From NCBI RefSeq assembly GCF_017114865.1, contig NZ_JADEYH010000012.1, forward strand, positions 1-64,000: a stretch of 64,000 bases of DNA, in the 5' to 3' direction. This DNA comes from Streptomyces verrucosisporus. GTDB taxonomy: Bacteria > Actinomycetota > Actinomycetes > Streptomycetales > Streptomycetaceae. Positions 24,795 through 35,381 of this stretch are shown piece after piece (within the stretch, counting starts at the first letter, position 1; every line of letters begins with the position of its first letter). Below the pieces are notes generated by a model. That model saw nothing but the letters and a program-made list of their open reading frames with translations. It was not told where the DNA came from and made no database searches. Made by a program: the position numbers and the translations under genes.

Positions 24795-24807
24795 TCAGAA
24801 GCCGAAG
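24795..24807. other. attL core
   Basis: 13-bp core TCAGAAGCCGAAG, identical to attR. It follows mutM by 48 bp. Sequence to its left is chromosomal, and to its right is the attP arm of the element, whose first codons (AAG TGA) would finish the integrase gene in the excised circle. Confidence 0.85.
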
Positions 24808-25041: not shown

Positions 25042-25320
25042 CTACTCCTTGATCTTGACCTGGAAACCAAGGCGCTTCAGCCATGCGGCCGCATGCTCCT
25101 TGCCACCGCTGAACTCGCCGGAAGTCAGCGCCCGTCCCTGGTCCCACTTATGTGCTACTCCGGCGATCGCCTTCGAGTCGTACTCCCGCCCCTCGTGCAC
25201 GAGAACGTACGATCGGGCTTCTCCGAAGCCGTACTTCGACAGGAACGCCTCACGTCCTGCCTCGTCGTACTCTTCGATGACCTTGAGTACGGATTCCCGT
25301 GTGATCGCTCCTCTGCGCAT
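25042..25320 (-). CDS. stand-alone protein resembling the ScoMcrA N-terminal head domain
   Basis: 92-aa protein with the pattern TRESVLKVIEEYDEAGREAFL, KYGF, VLVHEGREYDSKAIAGVAH and LTSGEFSGG, ending in a short LKRLGF strand. From memory this matches the N-terminal head domain found on ScoMcrA-type restriction endonucleases that cut modified DNA. Those proteins continue into SRA/HNH domains; here the gene stops after the domain. There is no clear ribosome site before ATG 25320. It may be a remnant, an antirestriction protein or an independent small protein. GC is lower than in its neighbours. Confidence 0.7.
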   Translation of the reverse strand: MRRGAITRESVLKVIEEYDEAGREAFLSKYGFGEARSYVLVHEGREYDSKAIAGVAHKWDQGRALTSGEFSGGKEHAAAWLKRLGFQVKIKE

Positions 25321-26044: not shown

Positions 26045-26545
26045 CTACGTGGGGCGCTGGAACAGTGCACCTGACTTCCGGTGCTCCAGGTCGACCAACC
26101 TGACCAGGGTGAACCCTTGGCGCTCGTAGTAGCGGTGCAACCCTGGATTGGTCTTCCACGCGTCCAGGCGCAACCACCCCTTGCCCTGCTGAGCGGCACG
26201 CTTGGTAGCCCAGTCCAGCATCACGGCCCCAACATCCCGCCCCGCCGCTGCCCGGCTCGTCGCCATGCGGTGAACGTAGAGCGCGCTGCCGGGGTCGTCG
26301 GCCTCGGTCCAGAACTCCGGGTCGGCGTGGTCGTCCACGGTGATCGTGCCGATGGGCCGGTCCTCGTCATCGACCGCCAGGAAGCACTCGGCGTGCCTGA
26401 TGGCCTTCTGGATGCGGTCGCGGTGGGGCGGGAACTGCCACTGGTCGATCCCGCGTGAGGCGAGCCACTCGGACGCTTCGATCAGAAGCTCCTCGACGGT
26501 CGGCAGCTCCTCGGCGCTCGCGGGCCGGATGCGGAGTCCGCTCAT
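26045..26545 (-). CDS. GNAT-family N-acetyltransferase
   Basis: 166-aa acetyltransferase. It begins LRIRPASAEELPTVEEL, has the beta4/alpha3 acetyl-CoA region with VHRMATSRAAAGRDVG, then LRLDAW and YYERQGF at the C-terminal fold end. Substrate unknown. Its ATG overlaps the stop of the GntR gene by 4 bp (ATGA), so repressor and acetyltransferase are one transcript, and the acetyltransferase may be autoregulated with it. Confidence 0.9.
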   Translation of the reverse strand: MSGLRIRPASAEELPTVEELLIEASEWLASRGIDQWQFPPHRDRIQKAIRHAECFLAVDDEDRPIGTITVDDHADPEFWTEADDPGSALYVHRMATSRAAAGRDVGAVMLDWATKRAAQQGKGWLRLDAWKTNPGLHRYYERQGFTLVRLVDLEHRKSGALFQRPT

Positions 26546-27318
26546 GACTGGTCCGCGGGCGTCTCGCGGCGTCGCTCGTAGGAGATCACGTGACGGTCGC
26601 CGGGTAGGACCGAGATCGCGACTCGGACGGGCTTGCCTTCCTCGGTGTACCCGGTGCACACGTGGTAGCCGACGGGCGTTCCGGGTGCCAACTCCAATCG
26701 CCGTACCTCGTCGGGGGTGGGCATGCGGACGTATAGCTCATCGATGGCCCGCTCCTGGCGGTAGCCGAGTCCGGCCAGCACCTCGTTCGCGCCCTCGGGG
26801 ATGCTCTCGGGCCGCATGATCGGGGTGTCCCGCACCAGGTCGAGCGGGAAGAAGCTGTCGTTGATGTTGAACGGCTCGCCGTCCAGGTAGCGGACTCGGC
26901 GGCGGGTGACGACGAGTTGTCCGGCTTCGAGCTGGAGGCGCTTGGTCACCTCGGCGGTCGGCTCCACGATGCTGACCTCGATGGTCTGCTCGGGGTCGCG
27001 GCCCTGATGCTCGGTCATGAAGGCGTCCATCTCCGGCGTGTACGGCCGGGGGCGGAACTCCGCCTGGGGTCGGAAGACCATCGGCTTGCGCTCGCGGACG
27101 AAGTACCCGACGGGGCGCTTGGAGACGATCAACCCTTCGTTGACGAGGATGTCCAGCGCCGCGCGAACCGTGCCGCGCGTCACGCCGTACTCGTCGGTGA
27201 GCTGGGCCTCTGTCGGCAACTTGGCGCCGGGCGCGAGAGTGCCGGCCGCGATCTGCTGACGCAGGTCGTCAGAGATCTGCTGCTTGTAGGTGCCGCGACC
27301 GACCTTCTTGACTGCCAT
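26542..27318 (-). CDS. GntR/HutC-family repressor, KorSA-like
   Basis: 258-aa regulator with an N-terminal winged helix (about 10-75, GTYKQQISDDLRQQIAAG ... VTRGTVRAALDIL) and a C-terminal UTRA effector domain. Its position, divergent from the transfer genes, matches KorSA of pSAM2, which represses the tra/rep genes and itself. The 171-bp divergent gap contains two related inverted repeats that fit as its operators. Confidence 0.9.
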   Translation of the reverse strand: MAVKKVGRGTYKQQISDDLRQQIAAGTLAPGAKLPTEAQLTDEYGVTRGTVRAALDILVNEGLIVSKRPVGYFVRERKPMVFRPQAEFRPRPYTPEMDAFMTEHQGRDPEQTIEVSIVEPTAEVTKRLQLEAGQLVVTRRRVRYLDGEPFNINDSFFPLDLVRDTPIMRPESIPEGANEVLAGLGYRQERAIDELYVRMPTPDEVRRLELAPGTPVGYHVCTGYTEEGKPVRVAISVLPGDRHVISYERRRETPADQS

Positions 27319-27343
27319 GCCTCCATGAAACGCCGCGCGACCT

Positions 27344-27361
27344 GCATTGTCCAGTCAATGT
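27344..27361. promoter_or_regulatory. KorSA-like operator, imperfect copy
   Basis: GCATTGTCCAGTCAATGT, an imperfect palindrome with outer half-sites like those at 27413-27430, located 26 bp upstream of the repressor start. It fits autorepression. Confidence 0.55.
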
Positions 27362-27372
27362 GGCCAAAGCCC

Positions 27373-27402
27373 TTGACGGAGCGCCGCCGAGGGGTCAACA
27401 TC
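27373..27402 (+). promoter_or_regulatory. putative promoter for the transfer operon
   Basis: TTGACG (27373-27378), 18-bp spacer, CAACAT (27397-27402). The perfect operator begins 10 bp after it, over the expected transcription start. Confidence 0.45.
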
Positions 27403-27412
27403 TGAACTGTTC

Positions 27413-27430
27413 GCATTGTTCAAACAATGC
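27413..27430. promoter_or_regulatory. KorSA-like operator, perfect palindrome
   Basis: GCATTGTT-CA-AACAATGC, perfect 8-bp arms, 60 bp before the first forward gene. The TTGT/ACAA half-site style suits GntR-type repressors. Confidence 0.65.
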
Positions 27431-27489
27431 AGACGTTGATCTGACCCGTGGGTAGTGCCTGCTGCCCTCCCCTGAGAGGAAGTCCTGTC

Positions 27490-27840
27490 ATGGCGTCTTT
27501 CAAGATCGACCTGTCGACCGCTGCGGTGATCGTGGCGACCGCCCCGCAGCCGAAGATCGCGAACCGGCGGACCGGTGAGATCGCCACCGACCCGGAGACC
27601 GGCGCGCAGCTGATGACGGTGGGCCTGATGGTGGTGGACGACGGTGAGGCCAACCTGCTGGACAAGGTCACGGTGCTGGAGACCGGCATCACCGGGGAGC
27701 TGACCACCGGGGCGCCGGTGGGAGTGACCGGGCTGCGGGCGCGGGAGTGGGAGAACGTCTTCAACGGCGAGAAGCGGCAGGGCATCTCCTTCCGCGCGGT
27801 GGCCATCACCCCGATGGTCCCGGCGACGGTGCAGGGCTGA
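27490..27840 (+). CDS. small conserved AICE protein upstream of tra
   Basis: 116-aa soluble protein, beta-rich, without signal or membrane segments. It is the first gene of the forward transfer operon, with a GAGAGGAAG ribosome site, and ends 5 bp before tra. Similar small proteins precede tra in other Streptomyces AICEs as I recall, but their role is unknown. Confidence 0.8.
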   Translation: MASFKIDLSTAAVIVATAPQPKIANRRTGEIATDPETGAQLMTVGLMVVDDGEANLLDKVTVLETGITGELTTGAPVGVTGLRAREWENVFNGEKRQGISFRAVAITPMVPATVQG

Positions 27841-27845
27841 GCGCC

Positions 27846-29186
27846 GTGTCGAACCTGACCGCTGTGGTGCTGGTGGTCGCCGTGGTGGCCGGTGGCGGGC
27901 TGCTGGCTCGCCGCCGGTTCCCGGCCGCGTGCTGGGTGCTGGCCGGGTTGCCGGTGGCCTGGGTGCGGCTGCACCTGACGTATGCGGCCACGATGGAGGT
28001 GTGCGGGCTGACCGTCACCCCGTCGCGGGCGCGGGCCTTTCTGACCCGGACGGTGGCCCGGCGGGAGGTCCGGCCGGTGGCTCCGCGGATTGTGCGGGTG
28101 CGGCCCAGCGCGACGGGGCTGCGGGTGCGGCTGCGGCTTCCGGCCGGGCTGGAACCGGCGGATGTGGCGGCGGCCTCGGTGCGGCTGCGCCATGCCTGGG
28201 GTGTGCACGCCGTGCACGTGGCGGAGATCAAGCCGGGTGTGGTGGAGCTGCGGATGACCGGCTACGACGTCCTCAAGCGGGTGCGGATGCCGCGCCGGGG
28301 CCTGCCCACCGGTGCGCTGGTGGTGCCGGTGGCGCTGCGCGAGGACGGCACCCCGTTCGTGCGCGACTACCGGGCCATTCCGCACGCGCTGACGCTGGGT
28401 GCGAACCAGTCGGGCAAGTCGATGTATCTGCGCAACCTGATCACCGCGCTCGCGGCCCGGCCGGTGGCGCTGGTCGGGATCGACTGCAAGCGCGGGGTGG
28501 AGCAGCGCCGCTTTGGTCCGCGGCTGTCGGCGCTGGCCACCACTCCGGATGAGGCCTCCGGTCTGCTGGCCGCCCTGGTGGCGGTGATGGAGGAGCGCTT
28601 CGACCTGCTCAGCGAGCGGGGTGTCTCCGATGTCTGGGACCTGCCCGCCGAGCTGCGGCCAACTCCGGTGGTGGTGCTGGTGGATGAGGTGGCCGAACTG
28701 TTCCTGGTTGCCGCCAAGAAGGACGAGGCCCGGCGGGATGAGATGGTCACCCGTCTGGTGCGGCTGGCGCAGATGGCCCGCGCGGTCGGCATCTACCTGG
28801 AGATCTGCGGCCAGCGCTTCGGCTCCGACCTGGGCAAGGGCGCCACCCTGCTGCGCGCGCAGCTCACCGGCCGGGTGGTGCACCGGGTCAACGACAAGCA
28901 GACCGTCGAGATGGGGCTGAACGACATCGCCCCCGAGGCCATTCCGGTGGCTACCACCATCGCCCCGGACCGGCCCGGCCTGGCCGTGGCCGGGGACGCC
29001 TCCGGCGCCTGGTCCCGCATCCGCACCGTGGAGATCGCCCCGGACACGGCGGCGGCCGTCTGCCGCACCTTCGCCCACCTCACCCCCGACCTTCCGGCCC
29101 TCGCCGCCTGGCGGCCCGCCGCCCCGGCCGTACCGGATGCGGGTGAGCGGCCGTCGCTGGTCAAACCGGCCCCGGTCACCGACTAA
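27846..29186 (+). CDS. FtsK/SpoIIIE-type DNA translocase, plasmid transfer protein Tra
   Basis: 446-aa conjugation motor. Two hydrophobic segments near the N-terminus (about 5-25 and 30-48) anchor it, followed by an ATPase with Walker A GANQSGKS (about 184) and Walker B VVVLVDEVAEL (about 276). Known biology: TraB/TraSA-type proteins move double-stranded DNA between mycelia as hexamers. The GTG at 27846 follows the previous stop by 5 bp. Confidence 0.92.
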   Translation: MSNLTAVVLVVAVVAGGGLLARRRFPAACWVLAGLPVAWVRLHLTYAATMEVCGLTVTPSRARAFLTRTVARREVRPVAPRIVRVRPSATGLRVRLRLPAGLEPADVAAASVRLRHAWGVHAVHVAEIKPGVVELRMTGYDVLKRVRMPRRGLPTGALVVPVALREDGTPFVRDYRAIPHALTLGANQSGKSMYLRNLITALAARPVALVGIDCKRGVEQRRFGPRLSALATTPDEASGLLAALVAVMEERFDLLSERGVSDVWDLPAELRPTPVVVLVDEVAELFLVAAKKDEARRDEMVTRLVRLAQMARAVGIYLEICGQRFGSDLGKGATLLRAQLTGRVVHRVNDKQTVEMGLNDIAPEAIPVATTIAPDRPGLAVAGDASGAWSRIRTVEIAPDTAAAVCRTFAHLTPDLPALAAWRPAAPAVPDAGERPSLVKPAPVTD

Positions 29187-29267: not shown

Positions 29268-29996
29268 GTGCGCACCAAACTCCGCCTCGACGCCGTGCTG
29301 ATCCAGGCCGTCATCGCCGGTGCCCTGTCGTTCGCCCACCTGCACGACCTGGCCGCGGCGGCCGGTCAGGACGGCTGGAAAGCCTGGGCCTACCCCATCA
29401 GCGTGGATCTGCTGCTGGTCGCCGCCTGGCACCGCATCCGCACCCTGCAAGCCGCCGACCTTCCGGCGGGCTCGGCCTGGTGCTGGTTCGTCATCGCCCT
29501 CGCCGCCTCGCTGGGCGCGAACGTGGCCACCGCCGGACTGCTGGACCTCACCGACGTGCCCGCCTGGCTGCGCATCCTCGTCGCCGGATGGCCCGCGCTG
29601 GCCTTCTTCGGCGGCACCCTGCTGGCCCACACCACACCCGACACCACCCCGGAGCCGGAGCCGGATGCGCCGGCCACCGCGCCCGGCCCGGCTGCCCCGG
29701 TCGTCGAACGCGCACCGGAACCGGCCGCCCCGGCTGTCGAGCCGGATCCGGTCCCCGAACTCGACCCCGCCCCGGCCCCGGTGGCGCCCGAACCGGCCCC
29801 GGCTGCCGACCCGGCTCCGGCTCCGGCTCCGGCTGCTACGGCGGTGACGGTTCCGGCCGCGCTGGTCGAGCACGCCCGCAAGGTCGCCGACGCCCACCGC
29901 GCCCGCACCGGCACGCCCATCGACCCCGACACCCTGCGCGCCCGCCTCGGGGTGCCCGCCCCGATGGCCGACGCCATCGCCGCCCAACTCACCTGA
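29268..29996 (+). CDS. DUF2637 membrane protein (SpdB-like)
   Basis: 242-aa protein with four predicted membrane helices in the first about 120 residues (e.g. AVIAGALSFAHL, FVIALAASLGANVATAG, ILVAGWPALAFFGGTLL), then a Pro/Ala/Glu-rich linker with PAP repeats and a helical C-terminus. It starts at GTG 29268 after AAAGGAGGT. SpdB-type proteins help spread the element within the mycelium. Confidence 0.85.
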   Translation: MRTKLRLDAVLIQAVIAGALSFAHLHDLAAAAGQDGWKAWAYPISVDLLLVAAWHRIRTLQAADLPAGSAWCWFVIALAASLGANVATAGLLDLTDVPAWLRILVAGWPALAFFGGTLLAHTTPDTTPEPEPDAPATAPGPAAPVVERAPEPAAPAVEPDPVPELDPAPAPVAPEPAPAADPAPAPAPAATAVTVPAALVEHARKVADAHRARTGTPIDPDTLRARLGVPAPMADAIAAQLT

Positions 29997-30014: not shown

Positions 30015-30191
30015 ATGGCCGGACGTGAACCCGACCGCTCCGACTTCCTCGACGCCGCCCGCGAGATGGCCGACACCGGCCGCCCCGAGCTGGCCCGGTG
30101 GCTCGCCGAGGAAGCCGCCGACCGCACCACCGACCCCGACGAAGCGGCCTACATCCTGGCCAGCTACCCCGACCCCACCACCAAGGAGTGA
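30015..30191 (+). CDS. small acidic AICE protein
   Basis: 58-aa protein (starts MAGREPDRSDFLDAAREMAD, ends DPTTKE), predicted helical. An ACAGGAGG site lies 10 nt upstream of the ATG, and the next gene starts 2 bp after the stop, so it is within the transfer operon. No function is known. Confidence 0.75.
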   Translation: MAGREPDRSDFLDAAREMADTGRPELARWLAEEAADRTTDPDEAAYILASYPDPTTKE

Positions 30192-30193
30192 CC

Positions 30194-30382
30194 ATGCCGC
30201 GCCCGAACCGCTTCCGCGACGTGCTCCGCGTCGGCCCGGTCCAGGTCGGCACCTACTACGACGGCCGGGGCCGCGACAAGCACACCGCCGCCTGCACCGC
30301 CCCGCGCTGCGGCTTCTCCGCCGACTACCACAGCCGCTCAGCCGCCGAGCTGGCCGCCCGCACCCACCGCTGCACCGCCTGA
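30194..30382 (+). CDS. mobile-element transfer protein (SpdA-type, small)
   Basis: 62-aa basic protein. The segment GPVQVGTYYDGRGRDKHTA and CTAPRCGFSADYHSRSAAEL are typical of small proteins annotated as mobile element transfer proteins in Streptomyces AICEs. The two cysteines and two histidines could bind metal. Role in intramycelial spread is inferred from position. Confidence 0.85.
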   Translation: MPRPNRFRDVLRVGPVQVGTYYDGRGRDKHTAACTAPRCGFSADYHSRSAAELAARTHRCTA

Positions 30383-30405: not shown

Positions 30406-30753
30406 ATGTCGATGTTCCGCCCCACCTACCCGCCGCCCGACACCTACACCGCCCCGGCCATGCCCGCGGCCCCGTCCCCGTCCTCGGCCGTGCCGCTGGT
30501 CCCCGCCGACCCGGACCCGACCCCGGCCACCGCACCCGTGCCCGCCCCGGCTTCGGTGCCGCCCAGGCCGGTCCTCCAGCTCACCCCCGGCGCCCTGGTC
30601 ACCGTCGCCGCCGGTGGCACCGCCGCCGTCCTGGTCGTCGGCACGGTGCTGGTCTCCCTGCTCCTGGCCGTCGCCGTCACCGCCACCTCGGTCGCGGTCT
30701 GCGCGGTCGTCCTGCGCTCCCTGCTCAACAACCAGCACGGCCGGGGCCGGTGA
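30406..30753 (+). CDS. SpdD-like protein with one membrane segment
   Basis: 115-aa protein. A Pro/Ala-rich N-terminal half is followed by a single long hydrophobic helix (about 72-105, VTVAAGGTAAVLVVGTVLVS) and a short basic tail. It has an AAGGGAG site upstream. Similar to SpdD proteins, which act in intramycelial spread. Confidence 0.75.
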   Translation: MSMFRPTYPPPDTYTAPAMPAAPSPSSAVPLVPADPDPTPATAPVPAPASVPPRPVLQLTPGALVTVAAGGTAAVLVVGTVLVSLLLAVAVTATSVAVCAVVLRSLLNNQHGRGR

Positions 30754-30760
30754 TCACCGC

Positions 30761-31312
30761 ATGGACACCCACCACCTGATCGCCGCCGCCCTGCCCGCGC
30801 TGGGCTGGGCCGTCCACGGCGGCCTGCTGGCCCGCCGCCTGGCCAGTGCCCGCCGGGATCCGCTGACCGGGCTGCACACCCGCGCCGGATTCACCGCCCG
30901 CGCCGAACGGATCCTGGCTACCTCTCCGGCCGCGCTGGTGCTGCTGGTGGACCTGGACGACTTCAAGGCCGTCAACGACACCCACGGCCACGCCGCCGGG
31001 GACGCCATCCTGACCGCCACCGCCGACCGGCTGACCCGCTGGTGCGCACGGCACGGAATCGCCGCCCGCCTCGGCGGAGACGAGTTCGCCGCCGTCGTCA
31101 CCAACCCGGCCCGCACCTGCGGCCTGGCCGCGCTGCGCGAGGACCTGCGCCAGCCGGTCGCCCACGGCGGTCGCCTGCTGCCGGTCTCGGCCTCGGTCGG
31201 CTCCTGCTCCCGCACCGAGCTGCCGGTACCGACCCTGACCGACGCCCTGTCGGCGGCCGATGCGGCGATGTACGCGGCCAAGGGCCACGGCAGGCGCAAC
31301 ACCCACAACTAA
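30761..31312 (+). CDS. GGDEF-domain diguanylate-cyclase-like protein
   Basis: 183-aa protein: a short hydrophobic N-terminus (about 5-28) and one GGDEF domain. The metal-site Asp region LLVDLDDFKAVND (about 66-78) and the intact GGDEF motif (residues 105-109) are there, so activity is possible. The usual I-site RxxD five residues before GGDEF is absent, so no product inhibition is expected. It lies 7 bp after the SpdD gene and may couple c-di-GMP, which controls Streptomyces development through BldD, to transfer. Confidence 0.92.
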   Translation: MDTHHLIAAALPALGWAVHGGLLARRLASARRDPLTGLHTRAGFTARAERILATSPAALVLLVDLDDFKAVNDTHGHAAGDAILTATADRLTRWCARHGIAARLGGDEFAAVVTNPARTCGLAALREDLRQPVAHGGRLLPVSASVGSCSRTELPVPTLTDALSAADAAMYAAKGHGRRNTHN

Positions 31313-31407: not shown

Positions 31408-31590
31408 ATGCCCCAGCACGCTCCGCACCGGCCGATCTGCCGCGACTGCGACGGCTTCCCGGCCGTGGCCATCACCACCGGCACCCGCCACCGCGACGGC
31501 TCCCGCGTGACCGTCCGCGTGGTCTGCCCGGCCTGCCGAGGCACCGGCCACGCCCCCCGCACCGCGGCCCTGGTCCGCGCCGGGCGGTGA
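31408..31590 (+). CDS. small zinc-ribbon protein
   Basis: 60-aa protein with two CxxC knuckles (CRDC and CPAC), the second followed by RGTGHAPR as in DnaJ-type zinc ribbons. It has AGAGAGGA upstream and overlaps the possible GTG start of rep. No known function; small zinc proteins next to Rep are usual in AICEs. Confidence 0.8.
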   Translation: MPQHAPHRPICRDCDGFPAVAITTGTRHRDGSRVTVRVVCPACRGTGHAPRTAALVRAGR

Positions 31591-31598
31591 CCGCGCCC

Positions 31599-32984
31599 AT
31601 GACCGACGCCGCCACGCTGGCGGGGGTGGACCCGATCACCTGGCAGGACTTCCTGCGGGTGGCCGGGTCCCCCGGCTTTGACCGCTGGCAAGAGCAGGTG
31701 CGCCGCACCGGCGGCTGCGCCGACCCCATCCACCTGACCGGCTCCACCAAGACCCTCGACCGCATCACCGGCACCGTCCTGCACGCCTACTCCACCGATG
31801 GTGAGCCCGGCGGCCGCCTGCGGGTGGCCTGCGGCAACCGCCGCGCCTCGCGCTGCCCGTCCTGCGCCTGGACCTACGCCGGAGACACCTTCCACCTCAT
31901 CCGCGCCGGACTGACCGGCGACCGCTCCAAGGGCGTGGCCGAGACCGTCCGCGACCACCCCCGCGTCTTCGCCACCCTCACCGCACCGTCCTTCGGCCCG
32001 GTGCACAACCGTCCCGCCCGCGGCCGGTGCCGCTGCGGTGCCCGCCACCGCGAGAACGCGCCCGAGCTGGGCACCCCGCTCGACCCCGACACCTACGACT
32101 ACGCCGGGGCGGTGCTGTGGAACAACCACGCCTCCGAGCTGTGGCGGTACTTCACCATCTACCTGCGCCGGGAAGTCGCCCGCCAGACCGGACGGACCCA
32201 GAAAGCCTGCCACCAGGTGCTGCGAGTGGCGTTCGGCAAGGTCGCCGAGTACCAGCGCCGGGGCGCGGTCCACTTCCACGCCGTCATCCGCTTCGACGGC
32301 CCCGACGGACCCGCCTCCGCCCCGCCCCAGTGGGCCACCGTGGAGCTGCTGACCAACGCCATCCGCGCCGCCGCCGCCCGCGTCGCCATCACCGTGCCCG
32401 CCGCCGGCACCCAGCCCGCCCGCACCCTGCGCTGGGGCACCCAGCTCGACATCCAGCCCATCGGCGCCTTCGACGGCGGGGAGATCACCGAACAGGCCGT
32501 CGCCTCCTACGTCGCCAAGTACGCCACCAAGGCCGCCGAGACCACGGGCACGGTGGACCACCGGGTCGGCAGCGTCGAGGCCCTCGATCTGCTGGACGTG
32601 CCCGAGCATCCCAGGCGGCTGATCGCGGCCTGCCTCGACCTGCACCGGTTCTACCCGGATCGGAAGCTGTGGGCCTGGGCGCACATGCTCGGCTTCCGGG
32701 GCCACTTCTCCACCAAGTCGCGCCGCTACTCCACCACCCTCGGCGCGCTGCGCCAGGTCCGCGCCGACTACCGCGCCGCCGAACAACGCGCCGCCCTCGG
32801 CCTGCCCGATCCCGACGACCGCCCCGAGGCGACCGTGCTGACCGTCGCCCACTGGGCCTACGCCGGGCACGGCCACACCGCTGGCGAGTCCTGGCTCGCC
32901 TCCCAGATCGCCCGCGACATCCGCGCATCCCGCGACGCAGCACGCGAAGCACGCGCAGACCTCGAAGCACAAGGAGAGTGGTGA
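31599..32984 (+). CDS. rolling-circle replication initiator, RepSA-type
   Basis: 461-aa protein, near the 459 aa of pSAM2 RepSA. It has a zinc-finger pair RCPSC (about 88), the HUH motif VHFHAV (about 226) and the catalytic tyrosine motif YVAKYATK (about 304). This makes the element able to replicate as a circle after excision. A GTG at 31587 overlapping the previous stop is an alternative start. xis begins 2 bp after the stop. Confidence 0.92.
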   Translation: MTDAATLAGVDPITWQDFLRVAGSPGFDRWQEQVRRTGGCADPIHLTGSTKTLDRITGTVLHAYSTDGEPGGRLRVACGNRRASRCPSCAWTYAGDTFHLIRAGLTGDRSKGVAETVRDHPRVFATLTAPSFGPVHNRPARGRCRCGARHRENAPELGTPLDPDTYDYAGAVLWNNHASELWRYFTIYLRREVARQTGRTQKACHQVLRVAFGKVAEYQRRGAVHFHAVIRFDGPDGPASAPPQWATVELLTNAIRAAAARVAITVPAAGTQPARTLRWGTQLDIQPIGAFDGGEITEQAVASYVAKYATKAAETTGTVDHRVGSVEALDLLDVPEHPRRLIAACLDLHRFYPDRKLWAWAHMLGFRGHFSTKSRRYSTTLGALRQVRADYRAAEQRAALGLPDPDDRPEATVLTVAHWAYAGHGHTAGESWLASQIARDIRASRDAAREARADLEAQGEW

Positions 32985-32986
32985 CC

Positions 32987-33181
32987 ATGGCCCGTCCGCT
33001 CCCGGCCCGCTACCTGACCCCGGTGGACGTGGCCGACTTGTTCGGCGTGCCGGTGGAGACGGTCTACCAGTGGCGGCGCAAGGGCACCGGTCCCCGCGGC
33101 TTCCGGGTCGGCCGTCATCTGCGCTTCGACCCCGAGGACGTGCGGCGCTGGGTGGCCGAGCAGATGGGGGCGGCTGCCTGA
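32987..33181 (+). CDS. xis: excisionase, MerR-like helix-turn-helix (Xis)
   Basis: 64-aa DNA-binding protein of the winged-helix MerR/Xis type, with LTPVDVADLFGVPVETVYQW and the GFRVGRHLRFDPEDV wing. Its stop overlaps the integrase start in TGATG. Together with Int it directs excision. Confidence 0.9.
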   Translation: MARPLPARYLTPVDVADLFGVPVETVYQWRRKGTGPRGFRVGRHLRFDPEDVRRWVAEQMGAAA

Positions 33182-34512
33182 TGGCCGGACACATCCAAGA
33201 CCGCTGGTTCAAGACCGTGCCTGGTCCGGACGGCAAGCCGGTCAAGGTCAAGACCGCCCGCCATGGCAAGGGTCTGCGCTACCGCGCTCGGTACGTCGCC
33301 CCGGACGGCACGGAGAAGAGCCAGTCCTTCCCCGACAAGGCCAAGCGCAAGGCGGAAGCCTGGCTCGCCAAGATCGGGGCCGACCTGGCGCGGGGTGACT
33401 ACGTCGATCCGGCGTCGGGTCGTGTCACGTTCCGGGAGTACGTCGCGGACTGGATCAAGACGCAGACCACCGACCCGGCTACGCGGGGATCCGTCGAGAT
33501 GCGGCTACGGCTGCACGCGGTCCCGTACCTGGGCTCTCGGACGATGGGGACGATCCAGCCGTCGCATCTGCGGCTGTGGATGCGGCAGATGGAGGACGCC
33601 GGACTGTCCCCGGCCTACCGCCGGGTGATCTTCGCGCACGTCTCGACGGTCTTCACTGCTGCCGTGGAGGATCGCGTGATCCGCGAGAACCCGTGCCGGG
33701 CCCGGTCGGTCAAGGCTCCCCGGCCCGACCCACGCAAGGTCAAGCCGTGGTCAGAGGAACGTGTGATGGCGGTCCGCTCGCAGCTCCCGGACGGCTACCG
33801 CGCGATGGTCGAGCTGGCGGCGGGCTGTGGGCTGCGGCAGGGGGAGGTCTTCGGCCTGGCCGTGGAGGACCTCGACTTCCTCGGCGGCCTGGTGCACGTC
33901 GTCCGCCAGGTCAAGTTGCTGGACAACCGGCCGGTCTTCGCTCCGCCCAAGGGCGGCAAGGAACGGGACGTACCGCTGCCGGAATCCGTGGCGGCCGTCC
34001 TGGCCGACCACATCACGCGGCACAAGCCGTGCGAGATCACGCTGCCGTGGAAGACGCCGGACGGCCCGCCGGTGACGGCGACGCTCCTCTTCTCCAGCCC
34101 GACCGGGCTGCCGCTGGACCGGAACCGCTTCAACGATCGCGTGTGGAGGCCGGCACTTCGGGCTGTCGGTGTGCCGACGGGCCGGGAGAACGGCATGCAC
34201 GCGCTACGGCACTTCTACGCTTCGGTCCTCCTGGACGCGGGGGAGAGCATCAAGGCCCTGAGCGAGTACCTGGGGCACCACGATCCGGGCTACACCCTGC
34301 GGACGTACACGCACCTGATGCCGACGAGTCAGACGCGGACCCGTGCCGCTGTGGATCGGGTCTTCGGCGGCCCGATGGGTTCCGGTGACGGCCCGGAGAC
34401 GGCCCAGGGACCGGATCAGGGCTCTGACCTGGGGGATTCTCAGAAGCCGAAGTTCTGTGTCCACCAGGGGCCGCCCTCGGCGAAGTGCGCACCCACGCCC
34501 AGGGTCCGGTAG
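33181..34512 (+). CDS. int: tyrosine site-specific integrase
   Basis: 443-aa recombinase. It has an arm-binding N-domain, a core-binding SAM-like domain (about 80-180) and a catalytic domain with Arg in CGLRQGE (about 219), HxxR in HALRH (about 340-344), LGHH and Tyr in TYTHL (residue 376). The gene runs across attR: its last 19 codons come from the antisense strand of the host CAP gene. In the excised circle it would end after KPKK, giving 425 aa. The two forms differ only in the tail. Confidence 0.95.
   Translation: MAGHIQDRWFKTVPGPDGKPVKVKTARHGKGLRYRARYVAPDGTEKSQSFPDKAKRKAEAWLAKIGADLARGDYVDPASGRVTFREYVADWIKTQTTDPATRGSVEMRLRLHAVPYLGSRTMGTIQPSHLRLWMRQMEDAGLSPAYRRVIFAHVSTVFTAAVEDRVIRENPCRARSVKAPRPDPRKVKPWSEERVMAVRSQLPDGYRAMVELAAGCGLRQGEVFGLAVEDLDFLGGLVHVVRQVKLLDNRPVFAPPKGGKERDVPLPESVAAVLADHITRHKPCEITLPWKTPDGPPVTATLLFSSPTGLPLDRNRFNDRVWRPALRAVGVPTGRENGMHALRHFYASVLLDAGESIKALSEYLGHHDPGYTLRTYTHLMPTSQTRTRAAVDRVFGGPMGSGDGPETAQGPDQGSDLGDSQKPKFCVHQGPPSAKCAPTPRVR
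34424..34435 (+). repeat. 12-bp putative integrase arm site, right copy
   Basis: CTGACCTGGGGG, inside the 3' end of int and 4 bp before the core. Identical to the copy at 24826-24837. Confidence 0.5.
34440..34452. other. attR core
   Basis: Same 13 bp as attL. Read on the reverse strand it is the end of the CAP gene (the last base of a codon, Phe, Gly, Phe, stop), so the integrated element restores the host coding sequence exactly. Confidence 0.85.
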
Positions 34513-35381
34513 TCGCAGTTGAGGATGTTGGCGCGGTGGCCGGGGCTGTCCATCCAGGCGTCCATCACCGCCTGTGCGTCGGCCTGGCCGCGGGCTATGT
34601 TCTCGCCGCCGAGGTTGTCGATGCCCGCCGCCTCGGCGCGGTCCCAGGGGGTCTCGCCGTCGGGGCCGGTGTGGGAGAAGAATTCCCGGGCGGCCATGTC
34701 CCGGCTGAAATCCTCGGCCAGTCGGGCCAGTTCGGGGTCGGCGGTGACCGGCCGGCAGCCGGCCTCGGCCCGTTCCAGGTTGACCAGTCTCAGCACCTCC
34801 GCCTCGGCGGCCGTCTCCTCGTCGAGGGAGGGGAGGCCGGGCGCGGTGGGCTTCCGGGAGGAGGCGGAGGGCTCGCCGGGGCTTCCGGAGGACTCGCGGA
34901 CGGCGTCGTCGCCCGCGCCGTCCTTCCCGGCGGGGGGTGTACTGCCGCGTGACGGGGTGGGCTCGGCCGACTTCTCCGAGGGCGTGGCCTCCGGTTTCTC
35001 CGGCTCTTGGCCGCGCGAGGCCCCGGGGTCGGGGGAGGCGGTGCGGCCGTCGCCGGGGCCCGCGGCGGGGCCCTCTCCGCGGTCGTCAGGGGCCGGTGTC
35101 GCCGCGCCCTGGGTCCGCAGGTCCCGCAGATCGTCCGGGGCCACGCCGGAGGGGGAGGCGAACCCGCCGACGGTGTAGTCGCCGTTCGGGCCGGGCAGCA
35201 GTCCCGAGGCCACCGCCACGGCGCCCATCGCCATCGCGGCCGAGGCCCCGAGGAGGCCGGTGCGGACGGGGACGGCGCTCCGCCTGCGGTGCGGGCCGCG
35301 GTGGCGTCCGCCCGCCGCGTGGCGGTCGGAGGTGACGGGGGCCGGTGCTGGAACCGGTTCGGCGCGGCGGTGGCGTCCCAT
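34440..35381 (-). CDS. CAP/SCP-domain secreted protein (integration target)
   Basis: 313-aa protein. It has a basic N-terminus and one hydrophobic segment (about 42-62, export signal or anchor), a Pro/Ser/Glu-rich linker (about 90-180) and a C-terminal CAP domain (about 190-313) with FFSHTGPDGETPWDR, GGENIARG and SPGHRANIL. CAP proteins in bacteria are secreted and of unknown role. The AICE has inserted at its stop codon without altering the protein. Confidence 0.92.
   Translation of the reverse strand: MGRHRRAEPVPAPAPVTSDRHAAGGRHRGPHRRRSAVPVRTGLLGASAAMAMGAVAVASGLLPGPNGDYTVGGFASPSGVAPDDLRDLRTQGAATPAPDDRGEGPAAGPGDGRTASPDPGASRGQEPEKPEATPSEKSAEPTPSRGSTPPAGKDGAGDDAVRESSGSPGEPSASSRKPTAPGLPSLDEETAAEAEVLRLVNLERAEAGCRPVTADPELARLAEDFSRDMAAREFFSHTGPDGETPWDRAEAAGIDNLGGENIARGQADAQAVMDAWMDSPGHRANILNCDYRTLGVGAHFAEGGPWWTQNFGF

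Follow-up and report, generated by a model that had tools for sequence, protein, structure and literature searches.

The window analysed here, a stretch of 64,000 nucleotides from Streptomyces verrucosisporus (contig NZ_JADEYH010000012.1), raises the question of why the conjugation operon of a mobile element should encode a GGDEF protein. A first-pass annotation of the window had proposed that this protein, described as 183 residues long with an intact GGDEF motif and no inhibitory RxxD site, allows the element to tune host development to its own transfer. The gene lies in a region that, judged from its gene content, is probably a pSAM2-type AICE spanning ~24.8–34.45 kb, in which a single unit holds an FtsK-type Tra, RepSA, Xis and a tyrosine integrase, as assigned by Pfam. 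The features of the element and its insertion site are listed below.

24795–24807 (+): putative left attachment core, the 13-bp direct repeat TCAGAAGCCGAAG, an exact copy of 34440–34452
26542–27318 (−): GntR/UTRA regulator that probably represses the transfer operon (Pfam GntR 3.7e-19, UTRA 2.4e-21)
27490–27840 (+): conserved 116-residue ORF preceding tra (without a Pfam match; syntenic in relatives)
27846–29186 (+): Tra, FtsK/SpoIIIE-type DNA translocase (Pfam FtsK_SpoIIIE 8.9e-32)
29268–29996 (+): spread-module membrane protein of the DUF2637 family (Pfam DUF2637 9.6e-24)
30015–30191 (+): orfA, 58 residues (open frame, no Pfam match)
30194–30382 (+): SpdB, ‘mobile element transfer protein’ (the longer frame 30098–30382 matches Pfam SpdB, 2.7e-29)
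30406–30753 (+): spdD-like membrane protein (named in the first-pass annotation; no credible Pfam family)
30761–31312 (+): GGDEF protein, predicted CdgD-family diguanylate cyclase (Pfam, motif, model and Foldseek)
31408–31590 (+): orfB, 60-residue CxxC zinc-finger-like ORF (weak DnaJ_CXXCXGXG match, 0.0019, below cut-off)
31599–32984 (+): RepSA replication initiator (Pfam RepSA 2e-154)
32987–33181 (+): excisionase-like HTH_17 protein, Xis (Pfam HTH_17 8.5e-14)
33181–34512 (+): tyrosine integrase (Pfam Phage_integrase 9.8e-20)
34440–34452 (+): putative right attachment core (the 13-bp repeat, at the 3′ end of the CAP-domain host gene)
34440–35381 (−): CAP-domain host gene (Pfam CAP 3.8e-25)

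The tra, spd and rep genes identified by Pfam on either side place the GGDEF gene inside the conjugation and spread operon, as had been noted. Its more precise assignment to the interval between spdD-like and rep genes holds on the upstream side, where seven bases separate the spdD-like stop codon from the GGDEF start codon, and requires amendment downstream, where orfB intervenes before repSA. We take the GntR/UTRA regulator to have a KorSA-like role. The region between its gene and tra (27319–27489) contains a perfect 18-base palindrome, GCATTGTT-CA-AACAATGC (with the central CA left out), and a second, imperfect palindrome, both of which are candidate operators for the regulator. A gene for a GNAT acetyltransferase (26045–26659, minus strand; Pfam 1.1e-11) adjoins the GntR gene, and the left part of the element contains a 92-residue ORF (25042–25320, minus strand) that has no Pfam match and presumably resembles the N-terminal domain of ScoMcrA-type restriction proteins.

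The putative attachment site at the CAP gene looks like a recurrent insertion site, since sequence resembling the 3′ end of an integrase gene is found beside it in 3 of the 11 relatives’ loci compared (L244, L247 and L254). No clean empty attachment site could be aligned among these 11 loci. Locus L248 (genome G006) has the TCAGAAGCCGAAG core twice in the interval from mutM to the CAP gene, at a spacing of ~0.58 kb, which may be a scar left by a lost element.

The GGDEF frame translates to 183 residues and a stop codon, and matches PF00990 over residues 31–179 (E 5.8e-30; 104.6 bits, where 23.8 is the cut-off). Translation, Pfam match and the RLGGDEF motif at residues 103–109 agree that the motif is intact; residues 96–99, where an RxxD site would be expected, read ARHG, which confirms that the inhibitory site is absent. 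Residues D64, K69, N72, D81, R103, the GGDEF sequence, K174 and R178 are all present, and correspond to metal, guanine and phosphate ligands if, as we assume, the PleD equivalences apply. The AlphaFold2 model (29 aligned sequences) has a mean pLDDT of 92.6 and contains a 28-residue N-terminal helix (residues 3–30) that runs into the GGDEF fold. The best Foldseek matches in the PDB are diguanylate cyclase GGDEF domains (4urs and 4urg, E ~1e-14), and 4yme is a further cyclase GGDEF domain among the nearest solved structures. The N-terminal helix is hydrophobic, with a 19-residue Kyte–Doolittle maximum of 1.66 that is borderline for a transmembrane segment; a stronger transmembrane assignment was dropped, just 11 of 56 proteins reaching 1.6. 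The gene is one of eight GGDEF matches in the whole genome and its homologs share the same slot in other elements, so the match is far beyond chance. The protein is therefore a predicted diguanylate cyclase of the CdgD family, for which enzyme activity is well supported at the level of sequence and model.

The same arrangement recurs in other genomes. A search of 392 Streptomyces genomes with the window’s GGDEF protein, with matches listed to E ~2e-35, led to 80 fetched regions, 48 of which (L119–L166, from 41 other genomes, or 42 with the window’s own) combine at least 60% identity with the syntenic position and are referred to here as class A. DUF2637, SpdB and SpdD lie upstream of the GGDEF gene in all 48; Tra is found in 47 (the L155 stretch begins too late), and orfB and RepSA follow downstream in 47 (the L131 contig ends too early). 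Seven named loci, six from Streptomyces (L009–L013 and L015) and one from Streptacidiphilus (L014), have this gene order as well. The class A gene is patchily distributed, being present in at least 42 of the 392 genomes among the matches listed. When elements were sampled in the reverse direction, from 40 RepSA loci (approximately every fourth listed row, with a few end rows picked by hand), 13 were of the orfB type, and two of these carry the GGDEF gene (2 of 40 overall). The slot in the other 11 is without a coding-like ORF in eight cases and holds a small ‘MGLFS’ protein in three. Because the neighbors are constant in class A and yet so few sampled elements carry the gene, it is, as far as gene context indicates, an accessory cassette at a fixed position of the spread operon and not stray cargo. 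The 11 elements without it, eight of them with no coding-like ORF in its place, also indicate that it is dispensable for transfer.

Two further observations concern this slot. A small conserved ‘MGLFS/MGLRD’ protein fills the spdD–orfB interval of the GGDEF-less elements L212, L218 and L228. In L119 (genome G214), the GGDEF protein is 95% identical to that of the window, whereas Tra and SpdB are only 52% and 59% identical; given this disparity, the end of spdD and the GGDEF gene look to have been exchanged between elements by recombination.

The twelve catalytic and ligand positions are invariant across 55 full-length class A proteins, which have a mean pairwise identity of 68% and in which 46 of 183 columns are invariant (hypergeometric P of 1.9e-8 for all twelve falling in such columns). 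All 33 mobile relatives at greater distance keep these positions, save for R178, which is kept in 32 and falls in a gap in one, and RxxD is found in none of 89 aligned sequences. The truncated class A copy L159 was left out of the tree described below and of the invariance counts, and L167 was left out of the alignments on account of its frame. Over a final set of 27 class A loci (L120–L146; a first set omitted L159 and L157, a copy of L013), the median dN/dS of the GGDEF gene is 0.40, compared with 0.31 for Rep, 0.26 for Tra, 0.35 for DUF2637 and 0.58 for SpdB. The GGDEF gene is thus constrained much like the backbone genes.

The mobile GGDEF proteins extend beyond this one type of element. 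Among 118 GGDEF domains placed in a maximum-likelihood tree, the 88 from mobile elements form one clade (99/97), the bootstrap being incompletely settled and the unity of the clade being partly a matter of selection, as the mobile set was picked by similarity to the window protein. Outside it lie five chromosomal GGDEF domains of the window’s genome and 25 others, distant sequences in the tree being limited to 25; two of the genome’s own seven chromosomal domains (L007 and L008) gave local alignments too short for inclusion. Class A is not strictly a single clade within the tree (two label changes). A more distant set comprises 34 loci at 46–64% identity (L016, L017 and L167–L198). In 13 of these (class B), DUF2637, GGDEF and a large Tra are encoded side by side, frequently accompanied by a Prim-Pol and by HD, NUDIX and XRE genes, and DUF2637 is directly upstream of GGDEF in 11 and downstream within 0.7 kb in two. 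Five loci (class C) have another Tra, with DUF2637 within 0.75 kb upstream in three, and the remaining 16, several of them plasmid-like, have no high-scoring Tra of these types nearby.

Relatives at E ≤1e-20 are also carried by 31 plasmids in PLSDB, 28 from Streptomyces and three from Kitasatospora, of which nine were inspected. One of them, the 18-kb NBC_00562, resembles an AICE in circular form and has the order DUF2637-GGDEF-FtsK-PrimPol-Int, and plasmids H3, H4, H5, H7 and H8 have the GGDEF gene ~4–9 kb upstream of a co-directional relaxase gene (mobF). No relaxase was found in the stretches inspected of H1 and H10, and the view of H6 is cut by the start of the record. The clade therefore adjoins FtsK-type transfer modules of three kinds as well as MOBF plasmids. 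Since FtsK-type and relaxase-type conjugation are both used, a target in the host is favored, and the common factor looks like the host rather than any one transfer machine. On plasmid pRVR1 (L239, 6947–9529), two WhiB-family genes and an Lsr2-like gene come straight after the GGDEF gene, forming a plasmid cluster of developmental or nucleoid regulators. Sampling across the class (394 genomes, 137 genera) gave 13 genomes with a match at E ≤1e-34, all of them Streptomyces, and the lineage appears confined to Streptomycetaceae in the collections examined. A phage origin was considered and set aside, the phage matches being weak (32–50% identity) and including no Streptomyces phage among the best 15 of 25.

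The family to which the window protein belongs is that of CdgD, for which Liu et al. 2019 is the primary paper. In the portions of the published reports available to us, CdgD is a stand-alone GGDEF protein (SCO5345 in Streptomyces coelicolor, equivalent to SVEN_3999 and SSFG_02343) that lacks RxxD and is encoded within an operon, and the S. coelicolor protein is confirmed as a cyclase (PMC7911125). The same portions report that overexpression of cdgDgh arrests development and lowers moenomycin fivefold (PMC7911125), and that relatives are active or arrest development when overexpressed (PMC7911125, PMC7026642). Deletion of cdgD is described there as leaving morphology unchanged in S. venezuelae (PMC6205966) and S. 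ghanaensis (PMC7911125); in the latter it alters the moenomycin titre, in the opposite direction to other cyclases, which the authors relate to local signalling (PMC7911125). CdgD-FLAG is hardly detected in S. venezuelae, and the accessible literature treats CdgD as a poorly conserved chromosomal host cyclase.

Our comparison suggests a different origin. In genome G015, the coordinates of the eight GGDEF matches run parallel to the SVEN numbering of the full set of eight chromosomal GGDEF genes; cdgD falls at 4.336 Mb (minus strand). From this fit we infer S. venezuelae as the source of G015, and the class A AICE gene of L138 as its CdgD (SVEN_3999). The L138 protein lies in the full AICE gene order and is 74% identical to the window protein, which places the latter above the 45% identity cut for the CdgD family given in the available text of PMC6205966. 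The L138 protein lacks approximately six residues after HTRA (HTRAEHL, compared with HTRAGWTARAEHL in most relatives) and has an arginine in the N-terminal helix where relatives have glycine; these two changes could explain the poor detection of CdgD. An AICE named Sco5349 is listed in S. coelicolor in the accessible part of PMC3218068. The spacing of locus tags fits a position of SCO5345 within it, by analogy with the order GGDEF-orf-Rep-Xis-Int, in which the GGDEF gene is four genes before the integrase. We found no placement of CdgD in a mobile element in the open-access literature, as far as its text was available, and within that literature neither the mobile GGDEF clade in transfer modules nor the membership of CdgD in that clade appears to have been described.

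c-di-GMP normally keeps Streptomyces in vegetative growth. On balance, we favor by a modest degree the idea that the window protein is a transfer-coupled CdgD-family cyclase that holds the mycelium in the vegetative state through host BldD while the element spreads. A GntR-type repressor would control the tra–spd–rep operon, as the divergent GntR gene suggests. Derepression of the transfer genes in the donor or in newly entered recipient mycelium would lead to production of the cyclase along with Tra, Spd and Rep, and in the absence of the RxxD product-inhibition site the enzyme would make c-di-GMP without feedback. The c-di-GMP would load host BldD, and probably also the RsiG–WhiG anti-sigma complex, such that hyphae would stay vegetative and the element would be copied and spread before they partition into spores. 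That the gene is expressed together with the transfer genes, and that spread benefits from it, is what we infer here.

The developmental role of c-di-GMP that the first-pass annotation invoked is partly upheld: the window’s genome has one match to the c-di-GMP-binding C-terminal domain of BldD (E 3.6e-38), and CdgD relatives are, in the available reports, active or development-arresting. Its further step, that the element may adjust host development to suit its transfer, goes further than these observations: morphology is reported unchanged when relatives are deleted, and most elements (11 of 13 sampled) lack the gene. Both points also count against the hold proposed here. Elements without a GGDEF gene also form pocks, so the enzyme would at most add to or tune the developmental delay. 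That intramycelial spread delays recipient development, visibly as pocks, is described in the accessible text of PMC9513070. A scan of the window with what we take to be the BldD-box consensus gave two one-mismatch matches, compared with 4.1 expected by chance, and thus no sign of BldD control. No mating experiment on a CdgD-type gene was found in the published literature searched.

A broader proposal, which we put forward tentatively and consider rather less probable, is that a dedicated mobile lineage of Streptomycetaceae cyclases serves as a developmental-hold effector. Its members would be expressed with the transfer genes, stop sporulation of the recipient until spread is complete and contribute to pocks, and CdgD would be an element gene and not a host regulator.

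Ranked next after a vegetative hold, as an unlikely but serious contender, is local signalling, in which the cyclase would feed a partner in the spread apparatus such as DUF2637 and regulate transfer or septal passage directly, with little cell-wide effect. DUF2637 is upstream in 48 of 48 class A loci, immediately so in 11 of 13 in class B and, at a distance of no more than 0.75 kb, in three of the five class C loci; the modelled hydrophobic helix could anchor the enzyme, and the authors of PMC7911125 speculate, in the text available, on a local c-di-GMP compartment for CdgD. However, most elements have DUF2637 modules without a GGDEF gene, several plasmid-type relatives have no close DUF2637, and a search of 81 stretches from the elements for the BldD-type receptor motif RGD-x8-RxxD gave three matches, each in an apparently non-coding frame, and none in a plausible one. 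We also know of no c-di-GMP-binding role for DUF2637. It is distinctly less probable still that the gene is host-modulating cargo with no tie to transfer, producing a heritable shift in the carrier’s antibiotic output or development that would be advantageous in certain niches. The patchy distribution, the clean cassette in an otherwise empty slot and the effect that deleting a relative has on the moenomycin titre (PMC7911125, available text) would suit such cargo, but the gene sits in the middle of the transfer and spread operon, outside any cargo region, and its clade is found repeatedly in transfer modules. That the protein is an inactive remnant or non-catalytic seems very improbable, for although L159 is truncated and the hardly detectable CdgD of S. 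venezuelae is missing a short internal segment, the catalytic residues are invariant, dN/dS is 0.40 and a relative is reported active in the accessible text of PMC7911125.

If the vegetative hold is correct, it would provide a molecular handle on the delayed development of Streptomyces during conjugative spread, a question open since pocks were described, and would mean that selfish elements use the master developmental signal of their host. The patchiness of CdgD, the lack of a deletion phenotype and its poor detection in pure culture would then be expected of a repressed mobile-element gene, and studies of c-di-GMP in Streptomyces would be comparing strains that differ in mobile cyclases.

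A diguanylate cyclase on an ICE is nothing new in kind. DgcK and DgcL of the SXT/R391 ICEs are likewise ICE-carried cyclases able to alter host behaviour; from their description in the available text, they differ in being cargo of Gammaproteobacterial ICEs (PMC10672970), elements with a type IV secretion apparatus, whereas the window element is an FtsK/Spd AICE with its GGDEF gene inside the spread operon and a sporulating host. The plasmid-borne pCdgG of S. venezuelae (pvnz37430) resembles the window protein, to go by its description in the accessible part of PMC6205966, in being a stand-alone GGDEF protein. CdgD shares the stand-alone GGDEF domain without RxxD and the location in an operon, and the inferred S. 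venezuelae gene (L138) has the same AICE order; the available literature, in contrast, presents it as a host cyclase with no conjugative element, and SCO5345 and SSFG_02343 are putative members of the clade. With the pSAM2-type AICE, the window element shares a GntR-type regulator, FtsK-type Tra, SpdB, RepSA, Xis and Int, and it differs in the extra GGDEF cassette between the spdD-like gene and orfB.
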